Positions 3,951 to 60,125 of a stretch of 64,000 nt of DNA are shown in pieces (the first letter of the stretch is position 1; each line of letters starts with the position of its first letter). Under the pieces are notes generated by a model. The model saw nothing but the letters and a program-made list of their open reading frames with translations. It had not been told where the DNA came from and searched no databases. The position numbers were made by a program, and so were the translations under genes. This DNA comes from Terebella lapidaria (lineage: Eukaryota > Annelida > Polychaeta > Terebellida > Terebellidae), in NCBI GenBank assembly GCA_949152475.1, contig OX424561.1, forward strand, positions 29,878,481 to 29,942,480, written 5' to 3'.

Positions 3951-4266
3951 ATTTTTAGGTTACCGGACCTATGGTCCGATAACCTATTGCCGTGGCGTTG
4001 TGTCCGTCGTCCGTCCGTCCGTCTGTCCGCCCGTCGTCGTCCGTCCACAATTTTATCTTTAAAGTGTACGGTCCAATCTTTCTGAAAATTTGGGAAAAGA
4101 TACCTTAAAATAATTCGAGAAGGAGGTATTTTTTATTTTTTTGATTTTTTCCAAAATGGCGGCCGTTTTCTTCGAAAAACGGTCAATTTTGGACTTTGGC
4201 GGCCATTTTCTCAAAAACTGTCTGATCAGATTTGAGATTTTTTTTTCAAAAGATTCTCCTTATGTA
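3950..4266 (+). repeat. R1 copy cut short by the Tc1 element
   Basis: The left end of R1 is well preserved: AGGTTACCGGACC, a TAT loop, then GGTCCGATAACCT, then a GTCC tract. The copy follows the same order as 41596-41860 until CTTATGTA, where the Tc1 left end begins at a TA. The remainder of R1 does not resume after the transposon. Confidence 0.85.
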
Positions 4267-10336: not shown

Positions 10337-10355
10337 CTCCCCCTTTCTTAGACTC
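10337..10355 (-). other. Polypurine tract next to the 3' LTR
   Basis: On the minus strand AAGAAAGGGGGAG lies directly before the LTR start TGTAACGG. This is the expected position of the plus-strand priming site in an LTR retrotransposon. Confidence 0.8.
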
Positions 10356-10610
10356 TGTTCGTCCCGAACAGATCAATATCACATATATACAAATTGTCAA
10401 CCGTTAAACTGTCCGTAAAATCAAACACAACTGTTTCCGTGATCGGGGTACTAGTATCTCTTAACTAGTTTACCGTCACTGTACCCGGATATCTTGCTTG
10501 TTCCGTTTCCCACTTTTAAACTCTTAATTATACTAGAATCCGGGAAACGGTTCTTCTTTCTTCTCCTTGCGCCGACTTGACTTGCGACGACTTGCGGCGA
10601 CTTGCGACGA

Positions 10611-12497
10611 CTACTGCCCACCAGTATCACGGTGCGAACTGCTCCCCGACGGCGGACGAGGTGGAATGGTATTTGGTACCAACGGTCGTCCGAAGCTTGT
10701 TCCTCTGGCATCAACCGGGAGAAGATCGGGATCATGGAGGCTCCACTGGGGCGGGACGTAGAACCCATTCCTGAGGCGTTCGTCCCGGATGGACCAATCT
10801 GGTATCCGGACGATCTGACGGGTCGGGACGAGACCAAACGGTGACTCTCTCTGCTCCATGATCTCCACGTAGACGCCGGAGTCTCTCATCTCGGCTGGCC
10901 CCCACTGCTCCGGTCCCCAACGTACTGCATAGTATCTGGCGTGCTCCGGGACTGCAGGTGCAAAGATGGAAGCGCTCCGTCCCCCAATATTCACCGTCAA
11001 ACAATGGGACGGACACGGTTGAGTTGAAGGACCGCCAAACGGGTAGAATGTGTAGGGTGGACTCTGGGTTGGTGCACGGACTTGGCTCCTCCCGGACCGC
11101 TCACTGGAAGACTGTCGAGGTCGGGTTTCCACCGGAGACAGGATTCCGGGTGTAGCTCTGGCTTGGTCTACCAGGATACTCCTCCGGGCTCTCTGCACGT
11201 CTGCATGGCCTCGGTCAGACGCGGAAGACTCCATTCCGTCATCCCTAGCCGCTGAACTGGTTCTGCTTCCGGCTACTGCTTGAATGGTTGCCGGCAAAGT
11301 TATCTCCATGGATCCTCGGGTCTCCGTCTCACTGCCAGCTCTGCTCCGGGTTCCGCCTTCCGCTTTGGTCTCCGATCTGCCTCCGGATCTGCCAATGGGT
11401 CTGCTGTCCGCTCGGCTATCTGCTCTGCTATCTGTTCTGCTATCGGCTCGGCTATCTGCTCTGCTATCTGTTCTGCTATCGGCTCGGCTATCTGCTCTGC
11501 TATCGGCTCGGCCGCTGGATCTGCTTTCTGCTCCGCCTCCGGGCCGGACAATCACGCTGCTCACTGCTCTGCCACTGCTAGTCGTTCTCGGAGGTGGGCT
11601 CCGGAAAAGGTCTTCCTCATCGTCTCTGCTCTGCATTTCCGCAATGTCTGCTACTCCAACTTCTGCCGCTGCTCCGCTGGAACCTTCCTCCAACAGCCGG
11701 AATTTGTAGTCATACACCGCCTTGCCTTTTCCCTTGACGCTGCCTCCTGAAGACTTGGGTGGGGTGTGTCGTTTCTCCTCCCCGCCACGTTCTCCGCCTC
11801 GGTCCTTGGCGCGCTCCGGGCTCTCCTTCCTATATTCCCGGCGTTGATGTCGACCGGATTTATCCGGCGAACGGCTGCGACTCCGCTTCTTTCCGCGGTC
11901 TCGATCTGCTCCGGTACCTCGAGATGGGTCTGGGCTGTTTTTCCGGGAGGTGTTCCGGGAAGAACTCCGGGTCACTGGCGGCTTAACCGGCTTCGGGTCC
12001 TCCGGGTCCTGCAACTCGTCTTCACTTGCCATGATTTTCAGCTCTGCTTCTTCTTCCGAACTGCTCCCTGCCTCCGTGGACGAAACGTCGGCTGCTAAGG
12101 CGGCCACTGACTGGGTACCGGAACGGTACCGGGTCCGGGACGAAACCGAACCTCCCGACTCCGACTCCGTATCCGACAACTGGTCAAGCCGTGTTACCGG
12201 CTTCTTGCTTTTCCGTGGGGTCATCTTGGACCGGAGGCTTTTCTCCTCAAACTGCTCTCTGCCAACCCTTAGTCGAATCGGGTTCGCGTCCATTGCGTGT
12301 CGGGACTGCAGATGCTTCTGTGTCCCCTCTTTCCGTCTGCTCCAATGTTCACACTGCGGACAGGCGAAGACGGTGACTTCACTCGTGTGCTGCTCCGTGA
12401 CATGCCGGAGCAACGTGTGCTTGCTGTTGAACTCTAGGTTGCAGTCTCCACACCGGTGAGGGCGGGGCTTGCGGGGTGTTGTCTTTACTTTCGGCAT
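10611..12497 (-). CDS. Extra ORF after pol: C2H2 zinc-finger, low-complexity protein
   Basis: A 628-residue frame between pol and the 3' LTR. Near the start are two Cys2His2-type fingers: CGDCNLEFNSKHTLLRH with VTEQH (about residues 16-37), and CPQCEHWSRRKEGTQKHLQ with SRH (about 45-65). A long charged Ser/Arg/Glu-rich region follows, with a tandem array of the four-residue unit DSRA/DSRT around the middle, then a more ordered C-terminal part with many Trp and Pro residues. It sits where other gypsy-group elements sometimes carry a third gene. No envelope feature (signal peptide, fusion or membrane segment) is seen. Function is not recognised; DNA or RNA binding is inference from the fingers. 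Confidence 0.7.
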   Translation of the reverse strand: MPKVKTTPRKPRPHRCGDCNLEFNSKHTLLRHVTEQHTSEVTVFACPQCEHWSRRKEGTQKHLQSRHAMDANPIRLRVGREQFEEKSLRSKMTPRKSKKPVTRLDQLSDTESESGGSVSSRTRYRSGTQSVAALAADVSSTEAGSSSEEEAELKIMASEDELQDPEDPKPVKPPVTRSSSRNTSRKNSPDPSRGTGADRDRGKKRSRSRSPDKSGRHQRREYRKESPERAKDRGGERGGEEKRHTPPKSSGGSVKGKGKAVYDYKFRLLEEGSSGAAAEVGVADIAEMQSRDDEEDLFRSPPPRTTSSGRAVSSVIVRPGGGAESRSSGRADSRADSRADSRTDSRADSRADSRTDSRADSRADSRPIGRSGGRSETKAEGGTRSRAGSETETRGSMEITLPATIQAVAGSRTSSAARDDGMESSASDRGHADVQRARRSILVDQARATPGILSPVETRPRQSSSERSGRSQVRAPTQSPPYTFYPFGGPSTQPCPSHCLTVNIGGRSASIFAPAVPEHARYYAVRWGPEQWGPAEMRDSGVYVEIMEQRESPFGLVPTRQIVRIPDWSIRDERLRNGFYVPPQWSLHDPDLLPVDARGTSFGRPLVPNTIPPRPPSGSSSHRDTGGQ

Positions 12498-12660
12498 TCT
12501 CTGCTTTGTGTCGATGTTGACTCAGCTACAGCAAACTGCCTTCTGCATCCGGTAACAGCTATCTGCCCCCTTTTATAGTCTCTGGAAGTCACGTGACTGG
12601 CTTATCTGCTTGATGATTGGCTGCTCAGCAAACTGCAACTCCTCCTGGTGGTCTTTTTGG

Positions 12661-12692
12661 ATAAATAATATTTTTTTTTTTTTTTTTTTTTT
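12661..12692. repeat. Homopolymer T tract in the LTR element
   Basis: A run of about 27 T (A on the element's coding strand) lies between two extra reading frames, next to C/T-rich repeats carrying AACCGCCTCCGTC units (about 12720-12900). Confidence 0.8.
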
Positions 12693-12899
12693 CCGTGTTG
12701 TTGTTGCTGCTAACTGCCACCGCTCTTTCTTCTCCGTCTCCGCCAAACTGCTAACCGCCTCCGTCCACCGCTACACTGCCAACCGCCTCCGTCAACTGCT
12801 ATACTGCCAACCGCCTCCGTCAACTGCTACACCGCCAACCGCCTCCGTCCACTGCTACACTTCCAACCGCCTCCGTCAACCGCTACGCTGCCATCCGCC

Positions 12900-13364
12900 T
12901 CAGGGTTCCTCCTCGTCCGCGGTGTGATACTCGGAAGTCTCCGATTCCGTGTCCGGGGTGGGAGAAGGTGGTGTATACTCCCACACCCTGATCTCTTCTT
13001 CCCAGTCTTCCGCCGGCTGAACTTCCTCTTCCGGTTCCGCAAACATCTCTCGCTCCCAGTCTTCTGGAGGTGTGTCTTCCGCTGCCCGAAGACAGCCCTG
13101 CGGATCCGGAACCCAACCTGGCGGGTCGATCGGTTCCGGCTGTTCGATGGGAGCGGCTGCTCCGGCATCCCAGTCTGTTCCGTACGGGAGTTGGTGAAGG
13201 GACGGAACAGGAACCAGAGGCTGTACCGGGGAACGGTTCAGGAATCTGCGGAAGCGGTTCTGTCGGACTTCGTAGCAATCCCTCTCCGGGCTGAGTCGAA
13301 CGTTCCGACCCAGTTCAGTGTCCATTCGTCCTGAGGAGGACGGTATTCTGCAGGGTACGTCCAT
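12900..13364 (-). CDS. Extra small ORF in the LTR element, acidic
   Basis: A 154-residue frame lies between pol and the larger zinc-finger ORF. The C-terminal half is Pro/Glu/Asp-rich (EEEVQPAEDWEEEIRVW) and no domain is recognised. It overlaps the neighbouring 115-residue frame in a different frame. It is annotated as a separate part of the element and whether it is translated is unknown. Confidence 0.4.
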   Translation of the reverse strand: MDVPCRIPSSSGRMDTELGRNVRLSPERDCYEVRQNRFRRFLNRSPVQPLVPVPSLHQLPYGTDWDAGAAAPIEQPEPIDPPGWVPDPQGCLRAAEDTPPEDWEREMFAEPEEEVQPAEDWEEEIRVWEYTPPSPTPDTESETSEYHTADEEEP

Positions 13365-13585
13365 CCATGCGCCTCCCGGAGATGTCTCCGTAAATCACAG
13401 GCCCGATTTCCGTAGAAGGAACACAGGCAGCAATAGTACTTCTGGCCCGGGCAGACGTGTCCTCTCTTGTCTCTCGCATCCGCAAACGTCCGGTCACACT
13501 TCTTACAGTACCGCCACAGCTCTTTCATTTGGTTGTCCATCTCCGTCTCATTGGGGCCGCCACCTCGCCTTTGCTGGAGCGCCAT
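13238..13585 (-). CDS. Extra small ORF in the LTR element, zinc-finger-like
   Basis: A 115-residue frame with two Cys/His clusters: CKKCDRTFADARDKRGHVC (about residues 30-48) and CCLCSFYGNRACDLRRH with LREAH (about 55-76). The second closely fits a C2H2 finger. It lies just downstream of pol on the element strand. With the 628-residue frame this gives the element two separate zinc-finger frames outside gag. Confidence 0.5.
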   Translation of the reverse strand: MALQQRRGGGPNETEMDNQMKELWRYCKKCDRTFADARDKRGHVCPGQKYYCCLCSFYGNRACDLRRHLREAHGWTYPAEYRPPQDEWTLNWVGTFDSARRGIATKSDRTASADS

Positions 13586-14164
13586 CCGGAAAAGCCGGGA
13601 AACAAAAGTTGTCGATCTACTGCACCACTTTTACTGCATATCTGTCAACTGCATATCTGCTCACTGGTATTACTGCTTGTTGACACTGGAAACTGCATAC
13701 ATTCTTGTCCAGAAGGAGGGCCCTTCCTATCTGGAATGATGTTTCACCGCTTCTGTCGATCTGCAGCCGGTTTGCTGTCTCTGCTAAGTGGAAACTCCGG
13801 TTGGATGTCACAGCCGGAAAACTTTTCCGTCTTAATTCACTGAATACGGAAGACGTGTAGCTGCTTCTCTGGAGATACTAGACCGTTAACCCAGGTTCTT
13901 CTGGACCCCTGGCCGCTACCCTGGACTGGTTGACTATGTGCTCAACCCAGTCAGAACCTCTAGGATGTCTCTATCCGGTCTCTGCACCGCTTTCCGCTCT
14001 GCTTCCTCTCTCCGCCCTGTTTCCGGAACCAGCACTTGCTCACTGTTCCGACTTCTTGCGGTCGCTCTCTGCCGGAACTCAACGTTTTACCAGGGTCTCA
14101 GCTATCTCCTTCTCCTGCTCTACAGCTCACCCCATCTTCTCATATTTCTGCGTTCTCTGCGGCT

Positions 14165-17100
14165 TTACTCCGAGTCCGTATCCGACTCAGAGACCGTCTG
14201 TTCCGACTCCGGAACACTACTCTGCTGCGGCGGCTCCGTCTGCCTCCAGGAATCCGCCATTCTCTGCTTCATCCATCTCGGATGCTTGACACCATTATAC
14301 GGTTTCAGCAAATCGAAGTGAACCACCTTCTGCCGAGTTTCACTCTCTGCAATCTCGTAGGTCACGTCGGTAAATCTGCTCAGCACTAGCTTTGGGCCGC
14401 TCCACTTCCTCTGCAACTTGGGTGCCTTGCCCTTCTTCCGAGTTTTGACCGCCATCCACACTCGGTCTCCTGGCTGGAACTGATTGTCGACCTTCCTCCG
14501 GTCGTACAGCTTCTTCTGCCGTTCCATCTCTCTGCCAGATTTCGTTCGAACCGCCTTGTATACTGCTTCTAGTCGCTCCCGGAGCTGACTGCCATACTCT
14601 GTTACTTCTGCTGTTGATTCTCCCGGAGGCCTGCCAATCAGTAACTCCACCGGAGTGTTGACTTCTCTGCCCAGTATCAGCAAATTGGGACTCTGCCCGG
14701 TTGTCTCCTGTGGGGTACTCCCGTAAGCTGCCATCGCCAACGGAACTAGCTGATCCCAGTTGGTCTGCCGCTCGCTTACGTACAGGCTCAGGATCTGCTG
14801 CAGCGTCCGGTTGAATCGCTCAATGAAACCGTCCGACTGAGGTCGGAAAGCGGTTGTCCGTGTCTTGTGAATCCCCAGGATTCTGCAAACATTTCTCAGC
14901 AAGTCGGACTCGAAATTTCTGCCTTGGTCAGTGTGGATCTCCATTGGGATGCCGTACCGCGCTGCAAACTGGTTGACGAATATGTCCGCAACCGTCACCG
15001 CTTCCTGATTCGGCATCGGGTAAGCCTCTACCCACTTGGTGAAGTAATCACCGATTACTAAGATGTACCGGTTCCCCCGGGTGGATTTAGGTAACGGACC
15101 CATCACGTCCATTGCCACCCTCTCCATGGGCGCTCCAACCCGGTATTTCTGCATCGGAGATTGTTTCAAGCTCTGCATACTTCTTGACGCACATTCGTCA
15201 CAGCTCAGCATCCACTGCTTTATGTCCCGCATCATAGCCGGCCAGAAATACCGCCTCCGAATGCTAGCCGCCATTCTTCTGCTTCCGAGGTGTCCTCCCG
15301 TCCGGCTCTGATGGGCCAGACGGAAAATCTCCTGTCTCAGCTCCTTCGGGGTTATTAACTGCATTCGGCTGGTTCCTTCTGCCGTTTTCCATTTCCGGTA
15401 GACTACTCCGTCGACTTTCAGCAAGGTCTTCCGCATCCCGTACAGCACTTTCTCCTCGCTGCTCATGCTGGAAAAGTCTGCACTGCCAGTTGTACCGCTC
15501 CCGTCGATCAGCGACGTCACCAGTGGGTACCAAGGTTCTGCTTGCTGCATTCTCCGCAAATCATCTGGTCGATATTTCTGCCCCAGCACAGTTTCCTGGT
15601 CCGCATTTTCCGCCAGCCTAATCTGCTCTGCAACCGCATCCGCTTTTCCTGGAACTGCCTTCTCCGTCACCGCAACCGCAACCGGCTTCCGGGACGCTGC
15701 TTTCTCCGTCACCGCAACCGCAACCGGCTTCCGGGACGCTGCTTTCTCCGTCACCGCATCCGGCTTCCGGGACGCTGCTTTCTCCGCTACTGCAACCGCA
15801 ACCGGCTTCCGGGACGCTGCTTTCTCCGCTACTGCAACCGCCTTCCTTGGGACTGCTTCCTCCGTCAGTTCTGCTTCTCCGCCCGATCTCCGTGACCGCT
15901 TCCGGCGTCCCCCCTTCCTTGGCTTGGGCTGAGGAGTTTCTTCACTTCGTGTCTGCCGGATCCTTTCTTCGTAGTTCCAGGCGTCTATCTTGGCTTGTTT
16001 CCAGTCGATTTTTCCGCATTGGCTGCATGGGGATCTGGACAAGGCATCCGCATTATTATGGATTCGCCCCGGACGATGTTCGATGTCGAAATGAAACTCA
16101 CTCAGGAGCTCAATCCACCGGGCTACCTGCCCCTGGGGCTCCTTGAAATTCATAAGCCAGGTAAGACTGCCATGATCTGTGCGAAGAAGGAAGTGTCGTC
16201 CCAGCAAGTACTGCTTATTCTTCTGTACCGCAAACACAACCGCCAGGAGCTCCTTCCGGGTGACACAGTATCTCCGTTCTTCTTTGGTTAGGCTGCGGCT
16301 CAAGTAGGTTATCACCCGCTCCTGGTTGCCCTGCTTCTGTGACAGTACTGCTCCCAGCCCGGTGTCACTGGCGTCCGTGTCCAGGATATAACGGCCTTGC
16401 TCCCTTGGGTACCCGAGTATCGGTGCCGATACTAGGCGGTTCTTCAGCTCTGCAAATGCCTGTTCTTGCTCCGTCTGCCACCGGAACTGCACCCCTTTTT
16501 CCGTCAAGTGATTCAGCGGCGCTGCAATCTCGGAGAACTTCGGCACGAACTTCCGGTAATAGGAGCAAAGTCCCAGAAAACTGCGCAGCTCCGTCAGGTT
16601 GGTGGGTGTCCGCCACTTCCGTACTGCCTCCGTTTTTGCCGGGTCGGTGCGGATACCGTCTCTGCCGACTATGTGACCTAGGAAAGACACCTCCGGCTGG
16701 AAGAACTTGCATTTTGACGGTTTGACTTTGAGGTCTGCCTCTCTCAGCTTGTTGAAAACCTCCTGAAGATCACGGATGTGATCCTCCAGGGTCTTGCTGT
16801 AGACTATGATGTCGTCCAGATATATGAGGCAGGTCTTCCAGGACAATCCGCCTAGCACCTTCTCCATCAACCGCTCGAACGTACCCGGAGCATTGCACAA
16901 GCCGAAACTCATGACTTTGAACTGGTAAAGGCCGCCAGGAACACAGAAGGCCGACTTTTTCCGGGCGTCTTCATCCATCCCGACCTGCCAGTATCCACTG
17001 GTCAGGTCGAGAGTGGAGAACCATTTGGCGTCTGCACAGGCTGCTATGGTGTCATCTATTCTCGGCAACGGGTAAGCATCTTTCTCCGTGACTGCATTTA

Positions 17101-18202
17101 ACTGCCGGTAATCGACACAGAACCGGGTGGTCCCATCCTTTTTCTTCACGAGAACAATCGGGGAAGCCCACGGACTGCTACTTTCTTCAATGACGTTCTT
17201 GTCTTTCATCTCCTGAATCAGACTGCTCACCAGCTCTCTCTTGTCTGGTGGAATTCGTCTGGTCGGCTGCTTAATCGGCCGGTGACTGCCCGTGTTTATC
17301 TGATGTTGTACCTCATTGGTCTGCCCCAGTTCTCCGGCATCATTACTGAAGGTCGGCTTATTCCGAAATAGGAGGTCGGTTACTCTCTCGCGGAAATGAC
17401 TCGGCACTGCATCCTGGGTCTGCTCTGCTAACTGCCACAGCTTCTCGTACCCGCTCCAATTCCGCCCGGCCTCCGACTCCGTGGAAATCTGCACCTTCCT
17501 GCTCCGCTCCGCCAACGGCACAACACTGCAACCGGCTGCTAAGGTGGTCATCGTCGCCAACTGCGCTCCTTTCTTGATGATTACCGGCTCCGCCATCACA
17601 TTGATCACTCGAACCGGGACTGTTCCTTGCTTTATCCGGGATAAAGTTCTCCCGATCAGCCAAGGTCTTTTCTCAGTAGGCTCCTGCGGCATTTCTAGTA
17701 CTCCTTCTGCTTCCCGGACACTCTCTGCTTGTCCTATTATCAGCTGTTCCGTTTCCGGCGGAATTTGGTAATCTGCTACAGCGTTGATCGGAAACGGCTC
17801 CCTGGTCTGCTCGAACATGGTGAGGAACACCTCCTGGCTGCCCATCTGCATGGTCATTCGGTCGAAATTTATGCCGGATATCCGGGAACGGATGAAATCC
17901 ATTCCCAGTATTCCTTCGTCTTCACAGTCTGCAATTTCGAACGTCACGGTCTCAGCTACTCCTGCGATGTTGAGTGGGAGTTCTTTCCGGCCATGCGTCC
18001 GTATGTTACTTCCGTCAACCATTGAAAGACGAATCGGCGACCGCTTCAGCTTCATTCCGGGCTTCCGGATCCGTTCCCAGGTTTGTAGGTTGAGCATTGT
18101 GACAGTGCTGCCGGTGTCGATTATCAGCGTTACTGGTTCTCTGCATACTCTGGCTGTCACACACATGCCCACCTCGCCCCTGGGACCGGGTCCGTGAACC
18201 AC
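14165..18202 (-). CDS. Pol polyprotein of the Ty3/gypsy element
   Basis: An open frame of 1345 residues. In order: an aspartic protease region with LIIDTGSTVTML near residue 30; reverse transcriptase with the YLDDIIVYS box near residue 470; an RNase H region (ILDTDASDTGLGAVLSQKQ); a repetitive Ala/Lys/Val linker of about 75 residues; integrase with an HHCC region (HLGSRRMAA ... CDECA) and a central core (MDVMGPLP, HTDQGRNFESD); and a chromatin-end region that includes GPKLVLSRF. The length is typical for gypsy pol apart from the repetitive linker. It is part of a mobile fossil-type element, not a host gene. Confidence 0.95.
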   Translation of the reverse strand: MVHGPGPRGEVGMCVTARVCREPVTLIIDTGSTVTMLNLQTWERIRKPGMKLKRSPIRLSMVDGSNIRTHGRKELPLNIAGVAETVTFEIADCEDEGILGMDFIRSRISGINFDRMTMQMGSQEVFLTMFEQTREPFPINAVADYQIPPETEQLIIGQAESVREAEGVLEMPQEPTEKRPWLIGRTLSRIKQGTVPVRVINVMAEPVIIKKGAQLATMTTLAAGCSVVPLAERSRKVQISTESEAGRNWSGYEKLWQLAEQTQDAVPSHFRERVTDLLFRNKPTFSNDAGELGQTNEVQHQINTGSHRPIKQPTRRIPPDKRELVSSLIQEMKDKNVIEESSSPWASPIVLVKKKDGTTRFCVDYRQLNAVTEKDAYPLPRIDDTIAACADAKWFSTLDLTSGYWQVGMDEDARKKSAFCVPGGLYQFKVMSFGLCNAPGTFERLMEKVLGGLSWKTCLIYLDDIIVYSKTLEDHIRDLQEVFNKLREADLKVKPSKCKFFQPEVSFLGHIVGRDGIRTDPAKTEAVRKWRTPTNLTELRSFLGLCSYYRKFVPKFSEIAAPLNHLTEKGVQFRWQTEQEQAFAELKNRLVSAPILGYPREQGRYILDTDASDTGLGAVLSQKQGNQERVITYLSRSLTKEERRYCVTRKELLAVVFAVQKNKQYLLGRHFLLRTDHGSLTWLMNFKEPQGQVARWIELLSEFHFDIEHRPGRIHNNADALSRSPCSQCGKIDWKQAKIDAWNYEERIRQTRSEETPQPKPRKGGRRKRSRRSGGEAELTEEAVPRKAVAVAEKAASRKPVAVAVAEKAASRKPDAVTEKAASRKPVAVAVTEKAASRKPVAVAVTEKAVPGKADAVAEQIRLAENADQETVLGQKYRPDDLRRMQQAEPWYPLVTSLIDGSGTTGSADFSSMSSEEKVLYGMRKTLLKVDGVVYRKWKTAEGTSRMQLITPKELRQEIFRLAHQSRTGGHLGSRRMAASIRRRYFWPAMMRDIKQWMLSCDECASRSMQSLKQSPMQKYRVGAPMERVAMDVMGPLPKSTRGNRYILVIGDYFTKWVEAYPMPNQEAVTVADIFVNQFAARYGIPMEIHTDQGRNFESDLLRNVCRILGIHKTRTTAFRPQSDGFIERFNRTLQQILSLYVSERQTNWDQLVPLAMAAYGSTPQETTGQSPNLLILGREVNTPVELLIGRPPGESTAEVTEYGSQLRERLEAVYKAVRTKSGREMERQKKLYDRRKVDNQFQPGDRVWMAVKTRKKGKAPKLQRKWSGPKLVLSRFTDVTYEIAESETRQKVVHFDLLKPYNGVKHPRWMKQRMADSWRQTEPPQQSSVPESEQTVSESDTDSE
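15590..15880 (-). repeat. Coding tandem repeat inside pol (RNase H to integrase linker)
   Basis: Units of about 45-51 bases encode variants of AVAVAEKAASRKP, repeated about five times between the RNase H and integrase regions. The frame is kept through the array. Such a length-variable spacer is unusual in pol. Confidence 0.85.
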
Positions 18203-18264
18203 CTGCCGGTTATGGGGGTGTTCTCTCTTCCGGGTCCCGGATTTCCCCTTTTCCGCGACCCGCT

Positions 18265-19533
18265 CTAGTTTTCCGGCTGCTGCTGCTGCTGTCGTGGCTG
18301 CTGCAGTTGTTGCTGCTGCAGCGGCTGCTGCTGCTGCTGTTGTCGCGGCGACTGCTGCTGTTGTGGTTGACGCCGCTGCTGCTGCTGCTTCGGCTGCCTA
18401 CAGTCTCGGGCAAAATGCCCTTTCCGGCCACAGTTGAAGCATTCTAAATCCGCTCGGGAACTGCGCTGCTGCTGCTGCCGGCTAACCGCTTCCTTGACCT
18501 GAGTCATCAGATCCGCCAACTGCTGCTGAGTCTGCTCGGCTTGCTTCCGCAATTCGTTCACCTGCTGGCTCCACTCCGGCTCCGTGTTCAGCTGCCTCGT
18601 CCGGTGTCGCTCCGCTGGTCTGCTGTTGTCCGTCTTCATAATACTCTCATACTCGGTAGCGAAAGCCAGGGCCTGCGACAGCGTTTCCGGGTGGCTTTTC
18701 AATACCGACAACCGCATATCTCGGTTAGTCAGACTGTTGCAGAAATGCATCTTCATGAGCACTTCTGTTGTTGCCGGATCCGCTTTTGGGTAAGCTAGCC
18801 GCGTCTTGCTCCGTATGTCTCTGGCCAGCTCGGACAGCTCCTCCTCCGGCTGCAATTTCCGTGTCTGCAATTCCGCCTGGAAAACAAATGTTTTCTCTCC
18901 CGGACAAAACTGCTGTTTTAATGCCGCCACAACCGTATCAAAGCTGCGTCTGGACATATCCAGTAGTATGCTGCGGGCGTTACCCCTCAAACTGACACAT
19001 AAGTTCAGCGCCTTTTCCTCTGCTGACCAACGGTAGTACCGAGCGTATTCAAGGAGGTGAGCCTCATACTCCGGCCACGGATCAGTTCCGTCGTACGTCA
19101 TTAATCTGGCTACTCCTGCCCTTGGTGCTGGTTGTTGTACTGCTTCTGCCTGCTGCTGCTTTCCGGTTACTGCCAGGTGCTGCTGAAACACCTCCATTTG
19201 GGTCGCCAATAATCTGGTCAGGTTGTCGACTAAATTCTCTCCGCCTTCCGGTTCCGCATCCGGTTCCCGATCGCCAGCCTGGTCCGGAAAGTTAATTTCC
19301 GCCTCTGCTAACTGCTCTGCAGGCTGTACTCCTTGAGGAACCCGAAGGGGCTCTTCTGCAACTGCTTTCTGCATTTCCGGCTGCAACAGCTTTCGCTCGG
19401 CAGGACGAACTGCTTCCTTTTCCGCAACCGGCATCTGCAACGGCTCAGCTCCTACTGCTCCTACAGGCTGCTCCGTGTCCGACACGGCTGCCTTCAGCTG
19501 CTGTTCCGCCAATTTGCCCCGTCTAGTAGTCAT
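18265..19533 (-). CDS. Gag protein of the Ty3/gypsy element
   Basis: A 422-residue frame, first after the primer site. The middle part (about residues 140-290) has the helical gag-like stretch with WPEYEAHLLEYARYY and FCPGEKTFVFQAEL. A single zinc knuckle CFNCGRKGHFARDC (C-X2-C-X4-H-X4-C) lies near residue 365. The C-terminus is a long Gln-rich tract encoded by CTG/TTG-type repeats. Pol begins about 60 bases further on. Confidence 0.9.
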   Translation of the reverse strand: MTTRRGKLAEQQLKAAVSDTEQPVGAVGAEPLQMPVAEKEAVRPAERKLLQPEMQKAVAEEPLRVPQGVQPAEQLAEAEINFPDQAGDREPDAEPEGGENLVDNLTRLLATQMEVFQQHLAVTGKQQQAEAVQQPAPRAGVARLMTYDGTDPWPEYEAHLLEYARYYRWSAEEKALNLCVSLRGNARSILLDMSRRSFDTVVAALKQQFCPGEKTFVFQAELQTRKLQPEEELSELARDIRSKTRLAYPKADPATTEVLMKMHFCNSLTNRDMRLSVLKSHPETLSQALAFATEYESIMKTDNSRPAERHRTRQLNTEPEWSQQVNELRKQAEQTQQQLADLMTQVKEAVSRQQQQRSSRADLECFNCGRKGHFARDCRQPKQQQQRRQPQQQQSPRQQQQQQPLQQQQLQQPRQQQQQPEN

Positions 19534-19543
19534 ACTGCAGATG

Positions 19544-19561
19544 ATCCCACCGCTGCCACCA
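19544..19561 (-). other. Primer-binding site, tRNA-Leu type
   Basis: On the element strand TGGTGGCAGCGGTGGGAT follows the 5' LTR after a 6-base gap. It is the complement of a tRNA 3' end ATCCCACCGCTGCCACCA, which I recognise as the acceptor end of animal tRNA-Leu (AAG/TAG type) plus CCA. All 18 bases match the recalled sequence. Confidence 0.85.
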
Positions 19562-19567
19562 AAAAGT

Positions 19568-20960
19568 TGTAACGGGTTTACACCCTTCTGTGACGTCTTG
19601 ATGAACCGGTTTTCTAGGGAGGTGGGTGAGTTGTTATATAACCGGAGCTGAAACGGTAAAACTCCGGGAAACTGCTGCTGCTGTACGGTTGAACTCCAGC
19701 TAGAAGTCTCTGAAGGTTGGTAGCGTGGTCTGGAATGGACCTCTTAACCGTTGTCCGACTGCTAATCTGCAACTGCACCTGTAACGTAAGAATCCGGAGG
19801 CGTTTCCGTCTCCGGGTACTGCAACTGCTCCGTCGGGATACCGCTTTACTGCAACAGCTCCGTCGTTCTCCGCCTTACTGCAACTGCGACTGCACCTGGA
19901 ATGAGAATCCGGGAACGTTGCCGTTTCCGAATACTGCAACCGCTCTGCCAGGTTCCGCCTCACTGCAAACTGCTCCGGTTGGCTCCGCCTCACCACAACC
20001 TGCGACTGCACCTGAAATGGAGTATCTCGGAAGTGTTCTCACTTCCGGTTACCGCAACCGCTCCGTCAGGTACTGCCACTGCAACTCCGTCGTCCGGTAC
20101 CGCTTCTGCAACTGCTTCGTTGTTCCCGTCTCTGCAACTGCTCCGTCTGATACCGCCTCCGTAGTTGCTCCGTTGAATACCACCTCCGTCTCCGTCTCCT
20201 TCCTTGGTGATCTGGGTTCTTGGATCACCCTAAGACGTCGTTACAACTTGGTCTTAACCGACTGTGGACTTATCTCCCTTTTCTCCGTATTACTTTCTTT
20301 TCCGGTGAACTAACTTTGTTATAACTTCCAGTTCCCTAACGAACACGTAAAAACAACTCGGTTGAAGTTTTCATGTTTATTTTCCAAGTGCACAGTAAGA
20401 AGACTTAACTGCTATCATCTGGATGACTCTATCCGGAACAAGGGAGTACTCTGCTATGGGAGAAGGGGTCGACGTCAGGTCGACGTCAGGTCGAGAACAG
20501 GTCGACGTCAGGACACCAACTCCGCCGTCCGCTGTGAAGCGGGGGCTTTTATAGACCTGAGACCCACGTCACGTGACCAACCTATTGTGACGTCATAGTC
20601 CGCCAAAACACTGATATTTTCCGGATTTCTAAAAACACTCTAGGACCAATCAGTGGCTGACACGTCACCTTTTAAACCGAAAACGAGGCTGATCACATGA
20701 CCTTCCGGAAATAACGTCATTACGTTTTTGTACTCCATTGTTCCGACTCCGTCTCCGGTTCCGGCTCCGTCTCCGGCTTTACCAACATCACAAATATACC
20801 AAGTTCCGAGACGGAAAACCTTTTAAACATTAACAATACGGAACCGTATGAACCTTTAAACACATATACATTTTAATAAACGGTTATTCAACCATAATAT
20901 CACAAAACACTAATAGAATTACCTAGGGGAAACTTTTGGGTACGCCCCAAAACCGTTACA
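19568..20960 (-). repeat. LTR (5' LTR of the minus-strand element)
   Basis: A near-identical partner of 8955-10336. It is about 11 bp longer because a GTCGACGTCAG-type unit is repeated near 20468-20510 and another short repeat is shorter. Confidence 0.95.
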
Positions 20961-32278: not shown

Positions 32279-33295
32279 ACGGTGGCTCATATTCGCCAGA
32301 TGGAGGAATGCACTTTTTTCTTTACAGCGTTATAACGCTCTAATTTACAGCGTAATAAGCTCTAATTTACAGCATAATAACGCTCTAATGTACTGCGTAA
32401 TTACGCTCTAATACAGCGTTATAATGCTGTAATACAGCGTATTAACGCTGTAAATTAGAGCGAAATTACGCTGTAAATTAGAGCATTATTACGCTCTATT
32501 ACAGCGTTATAATGCTCTATTACAGCGTTATAACGCTCTAATTTATAGCGTAATTACGCTTTAATTTATAACGTAATTACGCTCTAATTACAGCGTTATT
32601 ACGCTGTATTAGAGCATTATAACGCTGTAGTTTACAGCATAATATCGCTCTAATACAGCGTAATTACGGTTTAATTTACAGCGTAATTACGCTCTAATTA
32701 CAAAATTATTACACTGTATTAGAGCGTTATTACGCTGTAATTTAAGCGTTATTACGCTGTATTAGAGCGTTAAAATGCTGTAATTTACAGCGTAATTATG
32801 CTCTAATTACAGCATTATTACGCTGTATTAGAGCGTTATTACACTGTAATTTAAGCGTTATTACCCTGTATTACAGCGTTTTAACGCTGTAATTTACAGT
32901 GTAATTACACTCTAATTACATCATTTTAACGCTCTAATACAGTGTAATAACGCTCTAAATTACAGCGTAATAACGCTCTAAATTATAGCATAATAATGCT
33001 CTAATTTACACTGCAGAGACATCATCAGACCTGCTGTTTCATCAGCTCAATCATATGTAGGGAAATCTCAAAATTACTCTGATCTAGATATGTTTATTAC
33101 AAATCACGACAATGGAAATATGATAGGAAGGTGAACAGTTTAATATAGAGCATAATAACGCTCTAAATTAAAGCGTTATAACGCTGTAAATTAGAGCGTT
33201 ATATTGCTGTATTACAGCGTTATTACACTGTAATTAGAGCGTCATAACGCTCTAAAAAAATTACGTTCCTCTATGTGGCGAATATGAGCTTCCGT
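32279..33295. mobile_element. Second element nested in the hAT copy
   Basis: The ends ACGGTGGCTCATATTCGCCA and (inverse) ACGGAAGCTCATATTCGCCA continue for about 40 bp of imperfect TIR. ACGATTC flanks both sides (32271-32277 and 33296-33302), so this is an insertion with a 7-8 bp duplication. The interior is the palindromic array listed separately plus a short unique segment (33010-33140). Confidence 0.75.
32320..33260. repeat. Array of short palindromic units (AGCGTAATTACGCT type)
   Basis: Dozens of units pair GCGTAAT or GCGTTAT with their own inverse and are joined by CTCTAATTTACA-type linkers. The period is about 11-12 bases for the half unit. The array is broken at 33012-33143 by unique sequence and then resumes. 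Almost every unit is self-complementary. Confidence 0.85.
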
Positions 33296-33393: not shown

Positions 33394-34035
33394 GCTGAAC
33401 TTGGGGGAGGGGGGGGGGGGGGAGGGGTGAGCATGACACTGTTATGATGTGCTAGCGTATACGGAGCGTAACAATTGTGCAAGTACATGCACCTGATACA
33501 AGGGGGTGGATGGGTGAGGTGCCTGTATTGTCAAGATTGTACGTAAACGTTTTGATTTGCCCATACGCGGATACGACCATAGGCATAGTCGCCATAGTCA
33601 TCTCTCTCTATATATAGATCTAATATATGTGGTCCACGTGTAGTCTGAGAGCTTTAGTCTGTTAACGAGTAGGAACTTGCCGATCGCCCTGAGCACTCGC
33701 GTTTGTAGAAAATAAAAATTGTAAAATATGCGGTGGTGACTATTGAGTATTGAGACACGCATAGCAGTTACAACGAATTGGTCACATATTTGCTGGTAGA
33801 TGTCAGGTCGATCACCAGCGTTAAACTTTCCTACGCTGGAGATAGCTGTGATGCTCAGGATGCTGCACCGCCGCAGAGATTCTCTACCGCTGGTAACACC
33901 AGCGATAGGGGCTCTTCTATCGCTGGTGGTTGCATCGGGTGGTATTTGAGAAGATAAATCAGATAGTATTTGAGAATCTTTGAGATTCGATCATGGATAA
34001 TCATTGAACGATCACGGATGATATTCGGTCCTGTT
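33394..34035. other. No gene seen
   Basis: Holds a G-rich tract (33408-33428) and a perfect 12-bp hairpin CACCAGCGATAG / CTATCGCTGGTG at 33897-33928. No supported coding region. Confidence 0.4.
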
Positions 34036-34037
34036 TC

Positions 34038-34973
34038 ATCTCCTTTTTTGTAAATGTTTGACAACCCCCCGCTCATTTGAAAGGTTGAATTGGAGGCATT
34101 ATCATGATTATTGGTATATGCCATGTGTTGGTGTTGGGTTCGGTGTGAATTACTGAAGTGCATGTCCACTCTTGAATGACTGCAGAAGCACATGCTGCGA
34201 TGGATGTTGTTCATCATCCTCGCCTGGTACAATAAGGTAGTGGTCCGGGGCAAACCAGATTACAACTGGTCCACTTTTCGACGTGATCAGGTGTACAGTA
34301 GAAACAACTACATTTAACACACTGTCTGCCCCTGGTGACGCCCGTGTGTCATCTCCTTTTTTGTAAATGTTTGACAACCCCCCGCTCATTTGAAGGTTGA
34401 ATTGGAGGCATTATCATGATTATTGGTATATGCCATGTGTTGGTGTTGGGTTCGGTGTGAATTACTGAAGTGCATGTCCACTCTTGAATGACTGCAGAAG
34501 CACATGCTGCGATGGATGTTGTTCATCATCCTCGCCTGGTACAATAAGGTAGTGGTCCGGGGCAAACCAGATTACAACTGGTCCACTTTTCGACGTGATC
34601 AGGTGTACAGTAGAAACAACTACATTTAACACACTGTCTGCCCCTGGTGACGCCCGTGTGTCATCTCCTTTTTTGTAAATGTTTGACAACCCCCCGCTCA
34701 TTTGAAGGTTGAATTGGAGGCATTATCATGATTATTGGTATATGCCATGTGTTGGTGTTGGGTTCGGTGTGAATTACTGAAGTGCATGTCCACTCTTGAA
34801 TGACTGCAGAAGCACATGCTGCGATGGATGTTGTTCATCATCCTCGCCTGGTACAATAAGGTAGTGGTCCGGGGCAAACCAGATTACAACTGGTCCACTT
34901 TTCGCCGTGATCAGGTGTACAGTAGAAACAACTACATTTAACACACTGTCTGCCCCTGGTGACGCCAGTGTGT
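34038..34973 (-). repeat. 312-bp tandem triplication
   Basis: Units start at 34038, 34350 and 34662 and are almost identical. The minus strand of the first two full repeats carries the same 79-codon frame (contains SGPVVIWFAPDHYLIVPGED). Each unit ends in a 65-bp piece of the R2 repeat (ACTACATTTAACACACTG). Whether the frame is expressed is unknown. Confidence 0.9.
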
Positions 34974-35090
34974 CTTTGGATAAACTATTTGGTCGGGCTT
35001 TGTTTCTATTGCAAAATGTTGTATTTTACGTTTGTTATTGGCATCATCAAAATCTGACTGTATTGGTGGTAACAGATTGATACTTACATA
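34916..35090 (+). repeat. R2 repeat piece
   Basis: Runs from GGTGTACAGTAGAAACAAC through TGTCTTTGGATAAACTATTT to AACAGATTGATAC, matching 42820-42990 closely. It is continuous with the last 312-bp unit. Confidence 0.8.
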
Positions 35091-55412: not shown

Positions 55413-56576
55413 ATGGAGGACCCACTCAGAAACACTGCCCTTTGGATTGGTCTGAAAGCTAGGTACATGCCGTATATTTCAGAAAATGACTTGGCAAACG
55501 CCATCGTAACTTCGGTGAACAAACTGATAGGTCCTGACAAAATCTCCATTGACAATATCTTGTCGGTACACAAAATTATCACGAGTGAAGATATGTGGCT
55601 TATTCATTGCCAAGACTCACGAACCAAAGCCTGCATCATATCCGCTGACTCGGTTGAAGTTGATGGAAGGCAGCATGAATTTTTCGACTTTTCTTCTAGG
55701 AGAGTGAAAAACTACATGCCTTCAGAAAACATCCGGGTGTCTATTCACGGTATTCCTTTCAGCATCCCAGACTCAGAAATTGAGGATTGGATAGACACAT
55801 GGACAGAGCGTTCCTCCAAAGTGATGAAAGCTAGGGCCAAAATAAGACGTACAGAGTCTGGAATAACTGTGAAACATAATTCCCTTTACAACGGAAACAG
55901 ATTCTGTTATGTCTCGGAGATCCTCACGCCTTTGCCCAGATTCAGTTTGTACCAGATCCCTGATCCCTTCGATGCTTCGAACATGATAGACCTCAGGATT
56001 ACGGTTTACTACCAAGATCAAGTCATCAACTGTCGCAAATGTCTTGACGAATCTCACCAAGCAAAAGACTGCGAGAAATCCCGTGTCAACCCCAACCTCG
56101 AAATTTTTCGAGGTATTCATAATCCATTGTCGAATTTCTTCCCAGTCGATTTAAAGCAAAATGGTCAAGTGTTCTGCTCCTTGGAACAAGCATTCCAATT
56201 CGCCAAAGCTAAGCACGTAGGGGACAATCATGTCGCCAATCAAATCTTAGATTCGACAACTCTTGGAGCCAAGAAACTAGGAGACAGTCTCGTTGTCATA
56301 GACTCGGACTGGAATTCACTTCAGGTGTCTGTCATGAAATCGCTACTGGTCCAAAAACTTGAATCCTCAGACGACTTCCGAAAAGCCCTAAAGAATTCTG
56401 ACAAGAAGCTCCTTGCTGAGGCGACGTCTGATCCTTTTTGGGCAACCGGTCTGCCTCCCAAGGCGACATCTATCACTCACTGTGACAAGTGGCCTGGTCA
56501 AAACCTCATGGGGTGTTGCTGGCTGAGCTTCGTGCTGCGTTGTTGGTGGATCATACATCCGTTACAGCATCCTTGA
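55413..56576 (+). CDS. LINE ORF1 protein with CCHC knuckle and NADAR (YbiA-like) domain
   Basis: A 387-residue frame. Residues about 105-200 look like the RRM-type region of Tx1-clade ORF1 (ENIRVSIHGIPFSIPDSEIE). CRKCLDESHQAKDC at 207-220 is a C-X2-C-X4-H-X4-C zinc knuckle. Residues about 232-370 match the NADAR/YbiA fold family: FRGIHNPLSNFFP, CSLEQAFQFAKAKH, SDPFWATGLPP and WPGQNLMG. Near 56510 the frame shifts; an overlapping frame continues the sequence (VLLAELRAALLVDH) to a stop at 56962. NADAR enzymes act on ADP-ribose-linked substrates in bacteria; a role in retrotransposition is inference. Confidence 0.85.
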   Translation: MEDPLRNTALWIGLKARYMPYISENDLANAIVTSVNKLIGPDKISIDNILSVHKIITSEDMWLIHCQDSRTKACIISADSVEVDGRQHEFFDFSSRRVKNYMPSENIRVSIHGIPFSIPDSEIEDWIDTWTERSSKVMKARAKIRRTESGITVKHNSLYNGNRFCYVSEILTPLPRFSLYQIPDPFDASNMIDLRITVYYQDQVINCRKCLDESHQAKDCEKSRVNPNLEIFRGIHNPLSNFFPVDLKQNGQVFCSLEQAFQFAKAKHVGDNHVANQILDSTTLGAKKLGDSLVVIDSDWNSLQVSVMKSLLVQKLESSDDFRKALKNSDKKLLAEATSDPFWATGLPPKATSITHCDKWPGQNLMGCCWLSFVLRCWWIIHPLQHP

Positions 56577-56962
56577 CGACAGAAGATGTTCAAGCGGATC
56601 GCTCATCCTCTGCAGTGGGTTTGACGAGCAGAGAGGGCCAGGTGTTTCCGGACGTGGGAGGTATTGAAAACGACACACACTCCGCCGGCGTCGAATCGTC
56701 TGACGCCTTGAAACTGGCAGAAACTCTCCTCTCTGAAGCTCTCGCCGCACCTCTAACAAAATCCACGTCCTCACCGGAATTGTTCTCGATAGCCGACAAA
56801 TTCATCAACTCCGTGTCAGACACAGCCAACCACTGCTCCCCATCTAGGAAGAGGAAACCTTCAAGTCCGGTAAACTTGTCGGACCTGACCCACTGCGTTC
56901 GTCCAGAGAAGGCCGCAAGGGACGCTCTCATAACACCGACCACGTCCCAAATCCTAGAATGA
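56489..56962 (+). CDS. C-terminal part of the same LINE ORF1, shifted frame
   Basis: A 157-codon frame that overlaps the end of the preceding frame. It begins with the last NADAR residues (VLLAELRAALL) and continues as a Ser/Glu-rich tail with a basic patch SPSRKRKPSSPVNL that could be a nuclear localisation signal. One frameshift near 56510 would explain the split. Confidence 0.7.
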   Translation: MAWSKPHGVLLAELRAALLVDHTSVTASLTTEDVQADRSSSAVGLTSREGQVFPDVGGIENDTHSAGVESSDALKLAETLLSEALAAPLTKSTSSPELFSIADKFINSVSDTANHCSPSRKRKPSSPVNLSDLTHCVRPEKAARDALITPTTSQILE

Positions 56963-57267: not shown

Positions 57268-57950
57268 ATGGCTAGAATATTGACAGCCAATGTTCGTGGA
57301 TAAGAAGCAGACGAACACGCTCATCTCTCTTCACTCGTTTCAAAAAGTTAAAGATTGACATAATTATGCTACAAGAAACATATTTTATCGAAGAAGACAG
57401 AACAGCGTGGTCGTCAGAGTGGGATGGTATTATGTTTGCCTCTCCTGGTACTAAACATAGTTGTGGTCAAATCATTCTGATAAGTAAAGATGTTAGTCCT
57501 GAAAACTTGAGGCTATTGTTTCTGGAAAAACGGGTGATTGCGGCGTCATTTGATTATGAGGACGACACTTATTGTTGTGCTAATGTATACGCACCTAACA
57601 ATTATGATGATAAAATATTTTATGAACATTTGGATACTCTTTTGTCAACTTATACAGAGGAATATAGAGTTATTTTGGGGGGCGACTTCAACTGCACAAT
57701 TAATACACAAGACAATATTGCGGGATTACCTCACAAAAAAACTGAAATTGCTTCGTTTAATAATTTGGTAGATTCGTTGACACTAACTGATGTTTGGAGG
57801 TCATGCAATCCTAACGTAAAAGAGTTTACATGGTCAAATAAAACCAAGCAGATATTGAGACGGCTAGACTATATTTTTGTGGACGATGTAACATCTAGTA
57901 TCTTTCCGCTTGGGTTCGCTATCAATATCACAATGAAAAAGGAATTTTAA
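57268..57950 (+). pseudogene. LINE ORF2, endonuclease domain
   Basis: Starts MARILTANVRG, is shifted shortly after, then reads MLQETYFIEEDRTAW, VYAPNNYDDKIFYEHL, RVILGGDFNCTINT and RRLDYIFVDD. These are APE-type endonuclease blocks (QET, N-x-YAP, GGDFN and LDY motifs). The final SDH block is missing, lost with the deletion before the reverse transcriptase. Confidence 0.85.
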
Positions 57951-57959
57951 CTTTATTAC

Positions 57960-58798
57960 ATAAAGGTAAATCACTGCCCCGTAATCAGTTAGCAAATTGG
58001 AGACCGCTGAGTCTGACCAACACGGACTACAAAATTTTGGCAAAAACATTATGTAATCGTCTGAAAAGGGTGGTTGGAGAAATCGTAAGTGAAGACCAGA
58101 ACGGCTTTATCAAGGGACGTAATTCGGGTATAGTAATTAGAACTGTAGGTGACATTCTTGAATACACAAATCACACTAACACACCTGGAATTTTAATTTC
58201 ATTAGATTACTCAAAGGCATTCGACACCATATCTAAAGAATTCATAACATATTCATTGGAATTATTTGGGTTCGGCCCAGATTTTATGACATGGATAAAG
58301 GCTTTGAATTATGAAACGATAAGTTGCATATCATATAACGGATGGCTTTCTGGGTGGTTTAATTTAGAAAGGGGCATCCGTCAGGGCTGTCCCATCTCTC
58401 CGCTATGTTTTGTAATAGCATGCGAGCTACTAGCATGCAAAATACGTCAAACGCCGGCTATTCGGGGTATAAATATTAAAAACAGCGAAAACGAACTTCA
58501 GTCTATTAAAGTTGTTCAATATGCGGACGACACAACATTGTTTTTGGGTGACGAAAATTCCGTTCTTGAAAGCCTACACATTATACAAATATTTTCTCAA
58601 ATTTCATCATTAACCCTTAATCGAAATAAAACTACAGCTATATGGATGGGGTGTTGGAAATACATACGGAAACAATTAGCTGGCTTACAGTGGAAGATAT
58701 ATCCGGATAATATAATCAAACTACTTGGAGTATATTTTCGAAGCGATTGTGTAGCTTCTGAATTATCAGATTATCAGAGAATTGGAACATACGAATAG
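57960..58798 (+). pseudogene. LINE ORF2, reverse transcriptase domain
   Basis: Begins with RNQLANWRPLSLTNTDYKIL (upstream of the first Met at 58037), then EDQNGFIKGRNSG, ISLDYSKAFDTIS (catalytic Asp), RGIRQGCPISPLCF and VVQYADDTTLFLG (catalytic Asp pair). Spacing and wording fit the Tx1/L1 clade. The frame ends early at 58798 and resumes in other frames. Confidence 0.88.
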
Positions 58799-60125
58799 AG
58801 AAATGTGAGTCGATTATTCGAAGCTGGTCTGGACGGTATTGAACTTTATTCGGGAAAGTTACTCTTGCAAAATCATTTTTATTATCTCAATTCACCTATA
58901 TCATGCAAGGAATTATTTTACCGGACGCAGTATTAAACAGGTTGTACACTTTGTTTTTCAAATTTATTTGGTCTTCTCGGAAAAGACACGATGGAAAGGA
59001 AACCAAATATACATCAACGGAGAGGGTTAAACGAACAGTCATGATACAGGACAAAATGCATGGGGGGGGGGGGGGGGGTTAATGATAGACATGCGCGATT
59101 TACAGTTGGCAATCACACTCAAATGGGTAAAACTACTAGTTAGATGTGGTAACGGGGCATGGCGTATCAAACCAAGTAAATATCTGTCCCGATTTGGTTC
59201 GAATTATTTTGTCTTCAAGGCCAACGTAGACTTCAATCAGTTTAAAGGGTTAGACGGGTTTTTTCCCAAGTTTTTATAAAGACCTAGTTAAAAGGTGGCT
59301 GACGGTTGTTAATATTAACTGCCCTGTTTTACAGCAGGATTGCTCTCAATCCATTTGGAATAACAAGGATATAAAATATAAAAACAAAGTACTATTCTTC
59401 AAACGGTGGATAAACAAAAATATTTTGTTTCTTTCAGATATATGCCAGGATGGTAAAATATTGTCATATGATAAAATAGCAAATATCGTCGGTTACAGCG
59501 GGGGTGACGATGCTAGGATATAACGTAGTTAAGCATGCATTAGCGAAACATAACACATCGCACATATGTGAAGAACGTGACTTTACTTTAACTTTGAACA
59601 CAACACCTATCAGTGAACATCACACTCAAAATTTCAGAAAAATACTAACAAAAACTAAAATAGAGGATACACTTCACACTAGGCTCGACACAACCGAATC
59701 CATCTGGAAACTGTTATACCTAACTACCAGAGAAGTATCACTATTTTTCTTACAATGGCGTATATTGCATCATATCTATCCTGCTCGCAAATGTCTCAGT
59801 AAAATAAAAGTAAGTGAAGAAAGCACGTGTATAACTTGTAAAGTTGAAGACAATATCGAACATTATTTTGTAACATGTGAAGATGTGAGGGGTCTATGGG
59901 AAACTGTCGAAAGGGATGTACGGTTTCTAACTGGTATGAATATTTCATTATCAATCAAAGATAAAATCAAAGGTATCCCAGACTTAGATCGACTCAAAGT
60001 GTTCTCCAAAAAATCAATATTCTTTTATTGGTAGCCAAGGAGTGTATAAGTATATTCAAGTTCAAAAGAGACATTAATATAACTGTACTTTACGAATCAG
60101 AAAAGTCCTGGAGAAAACTTTGAAG
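58799..60125 (+). pseudogene. LINE ORF2, C-terminal region with zinc knuckle
   Basis: Broken into several frames. The clearest part (59504-60034) has LFFLQWRILHHIYPARKCLS and CITCKVEDNIEHYFVTC, a Cys-x2-Cys ... His-x4-Cys cluster typical of the Tx1/L1 ORF2 end. A last piece (LLVAKECISIFKFKRDI) follows a frameshift near 60030 and stops near 60122. A poly-G run at 59061-59079 interrupts the middle. Confidence 0.8.

Follow-up and report, generated by a model that had tools for sequence, protein, structure and literature searches.

The ORF1 of a LINE in the annelid Terebella lapidaria raises the question of what a NADAR domain does in a retrotransposon: whether it is an inherited part of the element, whether it keeps the residues of an active enzyme, and on what it might act. 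The element lies in the window, the whole stretch of 64,000 nucleotides that was analysed, and consists of the following parts.

55413..56576, + strand: ORF1, first frame (387 aa), with a conserved N-terminal block, a CCHC knuckle and then NADAR
56031..56072, + strand: zinc knuckle of the CCHC type (CX2CX4HX4C) at residues 207-220, invariant across all 16 rows of alignment A1
56121..56516, + strand: NADAR domain, residues 237-368, by Pfam match and residue maps, with a frame shift inside its last residues
56489..56962, + strand: remainder of ORF1 in the next frame, with the end of NADAR (GVLLAELR) and then ...ALKLAETLLSEAL...SSPELFSIADKFINS
56846-56869, + strand: KRKPSSP motif in the next-frame tail of ORF1
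57268..57950, + strand: ORF2 start (ATG at 57268) and endonuclease part, Exo_endo_phos (Pfam) 1e-7 on 57366-57947, with a frame change before 57366
57938..58798, + strand: ORF2 reverse transcriptase (RT), RVT_1 7.2e-25
59504..60034, + strand: ORF2 C-terminal zf-RVT, PF13966 3.8e-8

Pfam PF08719 (NADAR) matches residues 237-368 of the window ORF1 with E = 2.7e-19 and 70.5 bits (cut-off 35.1), and is the one family above the Pfam cut-off in ORF 55413-56576. The first-pass annotation had placed a NADAR domain in ORF1 at 55413-56962 from four landmark motifs, and this profile match, together with the presence of all four within ORF 55413-56576 (NPLSNFFP, SLEQAFQFAKAKH, DPFWATGLPP and WPGQN), bears it out. 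The NCBIfam model TIGR02464 gives 1.1e-18, yet its 67.9 bits lie below its own cut-off of 73.7. Compared by sequence alone with solved NADARs, the domain matches 8bau at 1.5e-4 and YbiA (2b3w) at 6.3e-3; with a profile built from 16 related ORF1s the values are 1.7e-15 and 3.8e-16, respectively. Equivalents of E43, K50, W89, E125, D130 and W133 (P. nicotianae numbering) are all there. On these matches, the window ORF1 contains a predicted NADAR domain of the YbiA subfamily.

The ORF1 frame had also been described as running straight into this domain. This holds up to WPGQN, directly past which, at about 56510, the frame shifts by one, so that there is no clean run to 56962, the end of the next-frame ORF. 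The tails of relatives match this next frame in tblastn (P0002 1.6e-7, P0008 2.4e-7, P0022 2.2e-8). ORF2 is likewise split over several frames, its endonuclease (57366-57950) and RT (from 57938) adjoining one another without the long intervening stretch that is present in L1 ORF2p (for the tower region of L1 ORF2p, see PMC10830420). Because this stretch is absent, the window copy is taken for dead, and what the window holds looks like a decayed LINE copy with both ORFs broken. A search for a target-site duplication around it found nothing convincing. The closest solved match of the RT is L1 ORF2p (7.8e-26), and the RT scores 195 bits with an L1-type RT query versus 42 with the other type. With an APE-type endonuclease, an L1-like RT and a place in the RT tree joined to the L1-type group at 100/100, the element is classified as an L1/Tx1-like LINE.

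Upstream of NADAR, the CCHC knuckle noted at first reading is real, its CX2CX4HX4C pattern being unchanged in every aligned row. The RRM-like part said to precede it is a different matter, as sequence profiles give no RRM match in the window's lineage. The conserved block ahead of the knuckle has no sequence match to RRM or to any other family, a divergent RRM being a matter for fold comparison. The two N-terminal blocks were also considered as mutual repeats, and this was rejected (hhalign probability 1.3%).

Among 16 database relatives of the window ORF1, 13 carry NADAR (P0001-P0013) and three do not (P0014-P0016); within alignment A1, 14 of the 16 members have a Pfam NADAR match, namely the window and P0001-P0013. 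These 13 are 31-49% identical to the window ORF1. Over the 14 rows with NADAR, mean pairwise identity is highest in residues 101-205 (0.516), followed by NADAR (0.425) and the first 100 residues (0.372). A tree of the part preceding NADAR sets the NADAR-free rows P0014-P0016 apart with support of 75/53, which weakly favours a single origin of NADAR inside the CCHC lineage. No relatives of the ORF1 alignment were found in viral and prokaryote contigs; a scan with the NADAR alignment found no relative in prokaryote contigs and, among viral contigs, a single phage-like one (L001), whose NADAR is ordinary.

The tails of these ORF1s have features of their own. A PIP-box-like pattern, [VILMF]xx[YFI][FLM], occurs in the last 70 residues of 12/12 ORF1 C-termini versus 0.90 expected from shuffling, and KRx(1-4)[ST]P occurs in the same 12/12 versus 0.56 expected, both patterns having been picked after viewing and the rows being related. 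The set comprises P0002, P0004, P0005, P0007, P0008, P0010-P0012, P0014-P0016 and P0018, other rows being excluded as cut or broken; TLQRYFTKK and RIDTIFQK are examples of the PIP-box-like motif, which is present also in NADAR-free ORF1s. The tail of P0022 has KRKVISP and no clear PIP-box-like motif, and the window's own tail is likewise without one. L1 ORF2p binds PCNA via a PIP box (PMC10830420); there the motif is in ORF2p, whereas in the window's relatives the PIP-box-like motif would sit in ORF1.

The genome of the window (761.6 Mb) has many further copies. A PF08719 search gave 973 first-look candidates, of which 150 were scored, all 150 lying above the cut-off; by hand count, 144 have no internal stop and 6 have one. 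Searching with the window ORF1 gave 847 candidates, 107 of them scored, and 120 matches. Of these, 38, including the window, extend in one frame at full length through NADAR (from residue 10 or before to residue 360 or beyond), 35 of the 38 being stop-free by hand count; as the query included NADAR, 38/120 says nothing on the share of NADAR-free ORF1s. Candidates for the latter exist in at least two places (C12:39109212 and C16:28146413), where the listed match reaches as far as the knuckle and includes no NADAR stretch. Identity to the window ORF1 among the scored matches is at most 53% for the other full-length ones and at most 57% for fragments, so that none of the scored matches is a near twin of the window copy. 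Sets of near-identical copies do occur in other subfamilies of the window-type ORF1 (L090/L091, L092-L094, L096-L098, L099/L100 and L101-L103), and recent mobility is evident from near-identical copies located on different contigs. The fusion thus recurs, both in the database relatives and in the matches from the same genome, its recurrence in related LINEs having been proposed as a check at first reading, and the comparisons support NADAR as an inherited part of ORF1 in the window's LINE family and in others.

To place these copies in their elements, 20 regions of 9.9 kb around NADAR hits were picked by hand from the 150. In 19 of the 20, a LINE RT lies downstream of the NADAR ORF in the same orientation (11 of type A, 8 of the L1-like type C), the exception being L015; 18 also have an endonuclease match, L015 and L018 being those that do not. 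In the RT tree the window groups with type C, and type A is split from both at 100/100. Human L1 ORF2p can be aligned over 14-1030 with the intact type C ORF2 of L023 (4.4e-91), and the type A ORF2 of L011 has matches to solved LINE proteins in its RT part only. We take the type A ORF2, from its NYRPVSLLS motif, to belong on the CR1/Jockey side. The ORF1s of type A and type C LINEs have a coiled-coil-like part (many weak coiled-coil Pfam matches, every one below cut-off), an L1 ORF1p-like body (L023 versus 2ykp, E = 0.0043; L018 versus Transposase_22, 0.0054, below cut-off) and then NADAR. The bodies of the type A and type C ORF1s are homologous to each other (L012 versus L023, 6.4e-29), and therefore the two RT groups share one ORF1-NADAR module. 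Alongside this L1-type ORF1-NADAR, the window's lineage has what is by its predicted domains a second kind, the CCHC type. In a NADAR tree whose root is unplaced, P0021, P0027 and L015c fall with the CCHC lineage in a group that is separate from the others at 100/95, and bacterial rows are nested among the other LINE NADARs.

Several of these regions have additional features. The starts of type A ORF2s (L010, L011, L012) share a conserved MG[IV]S[IL]xQ[YF]R[AY]AIG stretch, followed in L011 by IELHPGP, which resembles a degenerate 2A-like motif. Between ORF1-NADAR and ORF2 of L1-like LINEs there is a GDSL-esterase ORF at L020:6701-7378 (- strand; Lipase_GDSL_2 2.1e-15) and at L019:3034-3714 (+ strand; assigned by likeness only), giving two accessory enzymes within one LINE. 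L015 has, at 3075-4799 (+ strand), a 574-aa ORF with a NADAR match of 6e-16, His in place of the catalytic Glu, and a C-terminal part that weakly resembles the GDSL ORF of L020 (8e-5). It is flanked by two 97% identical ORF copies (L015:5314-7077 and 1-1872, + strand) in a 5.2-kb tandem unit, and the flanking ORF matches RVT_1 at 2.5e-11 and GIY-YIG at 22.0 bits, slightly below the 22.6 cut-off. L015 may be a Penelope-like element that includes this NADAR ORF.

Whether these domains could be active enzymes was assessed from residue counts in two sets, 85 rows from the PF08719 genome hits and 15 rows made up of the window and 14 others of CCHC type, with near-identical copies entered separately. 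From the 85-row count L015a and L015c were excluded, and L002, L004 and L007 were dropped as repeats of regions already taken. By alignment, position 125 is Glu, the residue of the YbiA subfamily as opposed to Asp or His, in 85/85 and 15/15 rows; E43 and W89 are each present in 84/85 and 15/15, D130 in 85/85 and 10/15, and W133 in 73/85 and 15/15, with F in 11/85 and C in 1/85. K50 is found in 69/85 and 14/15, replaced otherwise by Q, L, M or R (16/85) or N (1/15), and several of the rows with Q, L or M are stop-free. L015c, outside the 100-row count, has H at the E125 position. The predicted hydrolytic core is thus kept in nearly all rows, Lys50 least. Efficient hydrolysis by the E. coli C7 NADAR requires K95 (=K50) and D171 (position 125), and changing E88 (=E43) to Gln inactivates the enzyme, though with Ala there it is nearly active (PMC11543638). 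On the predicted pyrophosphate side the window's lineage departs from the rest: K or R stands at residue 79 in 63/85 rows, against D, E or G in 15/15 CCHC-lineage rows of the same genome, the lineage as a whole having D, E, N, Q or G in place of the pyrophosphate contact Arg79. As Tyr84 is also not kept there, the substrate may not be plain ADP-ribose.

Selection on NADAR is seen most clearly in the L1-type pair L010/L011, where dN is 0.071, dS 0.900 and dN/dS 0.079 (24.5 non-synonymous and 50.5 synonymous changes; Fisher 2.5e-22). Elsewhere in the same pair dN/dS is 0.104 in ORF1 before NADAR, 0.100 in the endonuclease and 0.061 in the first part of the RT. There are nine disjoint pairs at dS 0.1-1.5; two (L005/L010 and L003/L011) duplicate the L010/L011 comparison, five (dS 1.25-1.5, ratio 0.41-0.56) are taken for the low tail of synonymous saturation and are evidence neither way, and the two further separate pairs used, L066/L069 and L043/L009, have NADAR ratios of 0.170 and 0.346. 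The median over all 30 pairs at dS 0.1-1.5 is 0.415. One copy stands out, L095, in which NADAR has 12 non-synonymous and 3 synonymous differences from L090 (ratio 1.2) and 11 and 1, respectively, from L091 (ratio 3.3), all small numbers. L095 is also without Lys50; it is either a decaying copy or a copy under other selection. Most other pairs are saturated at synonymous sites, so that purifying selection, raised at first reading as a test of the domain, is seen by dN/dS in L1-type ORF1s, and for the CCHC lineage rests on residue conservation. NADAR is supported as being under purifying selection where this is measurable.

A NADAR in the ORF1 of Tx1 LINEs of the oyster Crassostrea gigas was mentioned in 2025 (PMC12477816), which weakens the novelty of the fusion. 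By their description those elements resemble the window in being L1/Tx1-group LINEs with a YbiA-type NADAR within ORF1; residue, selection and copy-number data, as given here for the genome of the window, are not reported for the oyster elements in the text covered. The same source reports an Ectocarpus Gypsy lineage, likewise a retrotransposon with a YbiA-type NADAR, but as an LTR element it has NADAR at the N-terminus of Pol, in contrast to LINE ORF1 in the window. Among the open-licence PMC papers covered, PMC12477816 is the only report of an ORF1- or retrotransposon-NADAR fusion, and none describes NADAR joined to an L1-type ORF1, its occurrence in a second LINE RT group or the selection acting on it; new here are the L1-type ORF1-NADAR in a second RT group, the copy number, the selection and the residues. 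With E. coli YbiA and the P. nicotianae NADAR (8bau) the window shares the NADAR profile and the E43/K50/W89/E125/W133 equivalents, and with the DarT1-associated NADAR the likeness is that of the profile. These three are stand-alone or operon enzymes, whereas the window NADAR sits in ORF1, and relative to these enzymes residue 79 is changed in the window's lineage, where the stretch from E125 to W133 is also shorter by one residue. SGNH-esterase ORF1s such as that of ZfL2-1 (PMC3905857) also have an enzyme domain inside a LINE/non-LTR ORF1, but the enzyme, fold and likely target (lipids) differ. ORF1s of the L023 kind match the body of human L1 ORF1p by sequence but add a C-terminal NADAR, and the window ORF1 is of another, CCHC type. 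One enzyme module on two kinds of ORF1, common to two deeply separate RT groups, is clear modular evolution of LINE ORF1.

The comparisons show that the ORF1p of this L1/Tx1-like family ends in a predicted YbiA-type NADAR whose catalytic residues are mostly kept in many related and unrelated LINE families of the same genome, and its spread over many elements of one genome suggests that it helps elements to copy themselves. The first-pass annotation had proposed an enzyme that counters a host ADP-ribosylation defence or processes the element's own nucleoprotein. This stands in part, NADAR being inherited, its catalytic residues mostly kept and purifying selection found where measured; for the RRM-like part, sequence comparison gives no support. 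We tentatively propose, as a reading that falls somewhat short of an even chance, that the NADAR is an active N-glycosyl hydrolase borne by ORF1p on the element ribonucleoprotein, where it would strip ADP-ribose, or a chemically similar adduct, off guanines of the element RNA, cDNA or nicked target DNA. With such adducts removed, reverse transcription would not be blocked by host or stress-induced ADP-ribosylation, so that NADAR-bearing lineages would survive and spread; entire ORF1 modules would also have passed between LINE superfamilies. Weighing against this proposal are the replacement of Lys50 in 17 of 100 rows and of W133 in some, the altered residue 79 in the window's lineage, the excess of non-synonymous change in L095 and the database relatives that lack NADAR. 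Protection of this kind would be reasonable by analogy with the biochemistry of other NADARs (PMC11543638, PMC11125620), of which each of the four subtypes tested from E. coli and phages, like a myxobacterial YbiA, is reported to remove ADP-ribose from guanine (PMC11125620), and with clams, six edible species of which have guanine-N2 DNA ADP-ribosylating activity, one enzyme having been cloned (PMC11209040). Given this activity in clams and the NADARs of oyster LINEs, substrate and eraser may meet in molluscs. A wider form of the proposal, in which NADAR would be a general counter-defence module of animal retroelements against host guanine ADP-ribosylation by clam/butterfly-type enzymes, and would have moved between LINE superfamilies, perhaps into Penelope-like elements, through that benefit, we consider rather unlikely.

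Other roles for the domain have to be set against the guanine proposal. The Lys50 changes to Q, L or M in stop-free rows, the use of the NADAR domains of nematode SNA-3 in trans-splicing (PMC9303266) and the published suggestion that NADAR processes RNA intermediates in the oyster and Ectocarpus elements (PMC12477816) are what would be expected if NADAR served to bind or process the RNA intermediate, catalysis being optional; but Glu43, Trp89 and Glu125 are near-invariant, beyond the needs of pure binding, and we regard this as possible, if somewhat improbable. Slightly more doubtful than either this or the wider counter-defence role is action on a small molecule, such as an ADP-ribose signal in cyclic or linear form or a different N-glycoside, e.g. 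riboflavin intermediates, by which the domain would blunt a host alarm with no repair of nucleic acid. Such a role has been proposed for phage NADARs (PMC9503650), the best NCBIfam model, TIGR02464, is that of a riboflavin-intermediate N-glycosidase, and the pyrophosphate-contact residue 79 is altered in the window's lineage; the joining of NADAR to a CCHC knuckle or an L1 ORF1p-like body points instead to a nucleic-acid or RNP substrate, and the NADARs of eukaryotic RNA viruses have been argued to act mainly against macromolecular adducts (PMC9503650).

That NADAR is a functionless passenger, copied along by chance after its capture, is very improbable. It would fit the window copy, broken in both ORFs, and the relaxed change in L095, but not a dN/dS of 0.079 at dS 0.9, as low as in the RT and endonuclease of L010/L011, nor catalytic residues kept among relatives 31-53% identical to the window ORF1 over most of its length, nor the presence of NADAR in several LINE lineages of the same genome; for the L010/L011 lineage this explanation is largely refuted. 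Chance juxtaposition, or a host NADAR gene nested in a LINE, has a negligible probability: L029 does appear to lie inside a Gypsy element, but the same ORF1-NADAR layout recurs in 13 other database entries and in the 38/120 matches from the same genome, which refutes it. Should the domain be active as in the guanine proposal, retroelements would carry their own eraser of nucleic-acid ADP-ribosylation, and guanine ADP-ribosylation in animals, the role of which is little understood, would gain a testable opponent. As the genome has many recently copied, stop-free ORF1-NADARs, the question of activity is directly testable with purified protein.

Other elements are present in the window. A Gypsy element at 8947-20960 (- strand) has repeats at 8947-10336 and 19560-20960 that are 96.9% identical, a gag at 18265-19533, an uninterrupted pol at 14165-18202 and a further 628-aa ORF at 10611-12497 with only a weak zf-Di19 match. 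An uninterrupted Tc1-type transposase ORF of 348 aa is located at 4538-5584 (+ strand; DDE_3 5.6e-20). There is a satellite at 1766-3955 with 34 copies of a 64-bp unit, a 688-bp array at 32322-33010, its own inverted repeat, built of near-palindromic TTACAGCG units, and a repeat at 34032-34974 with three copies of a 312-bp unit at 99%.
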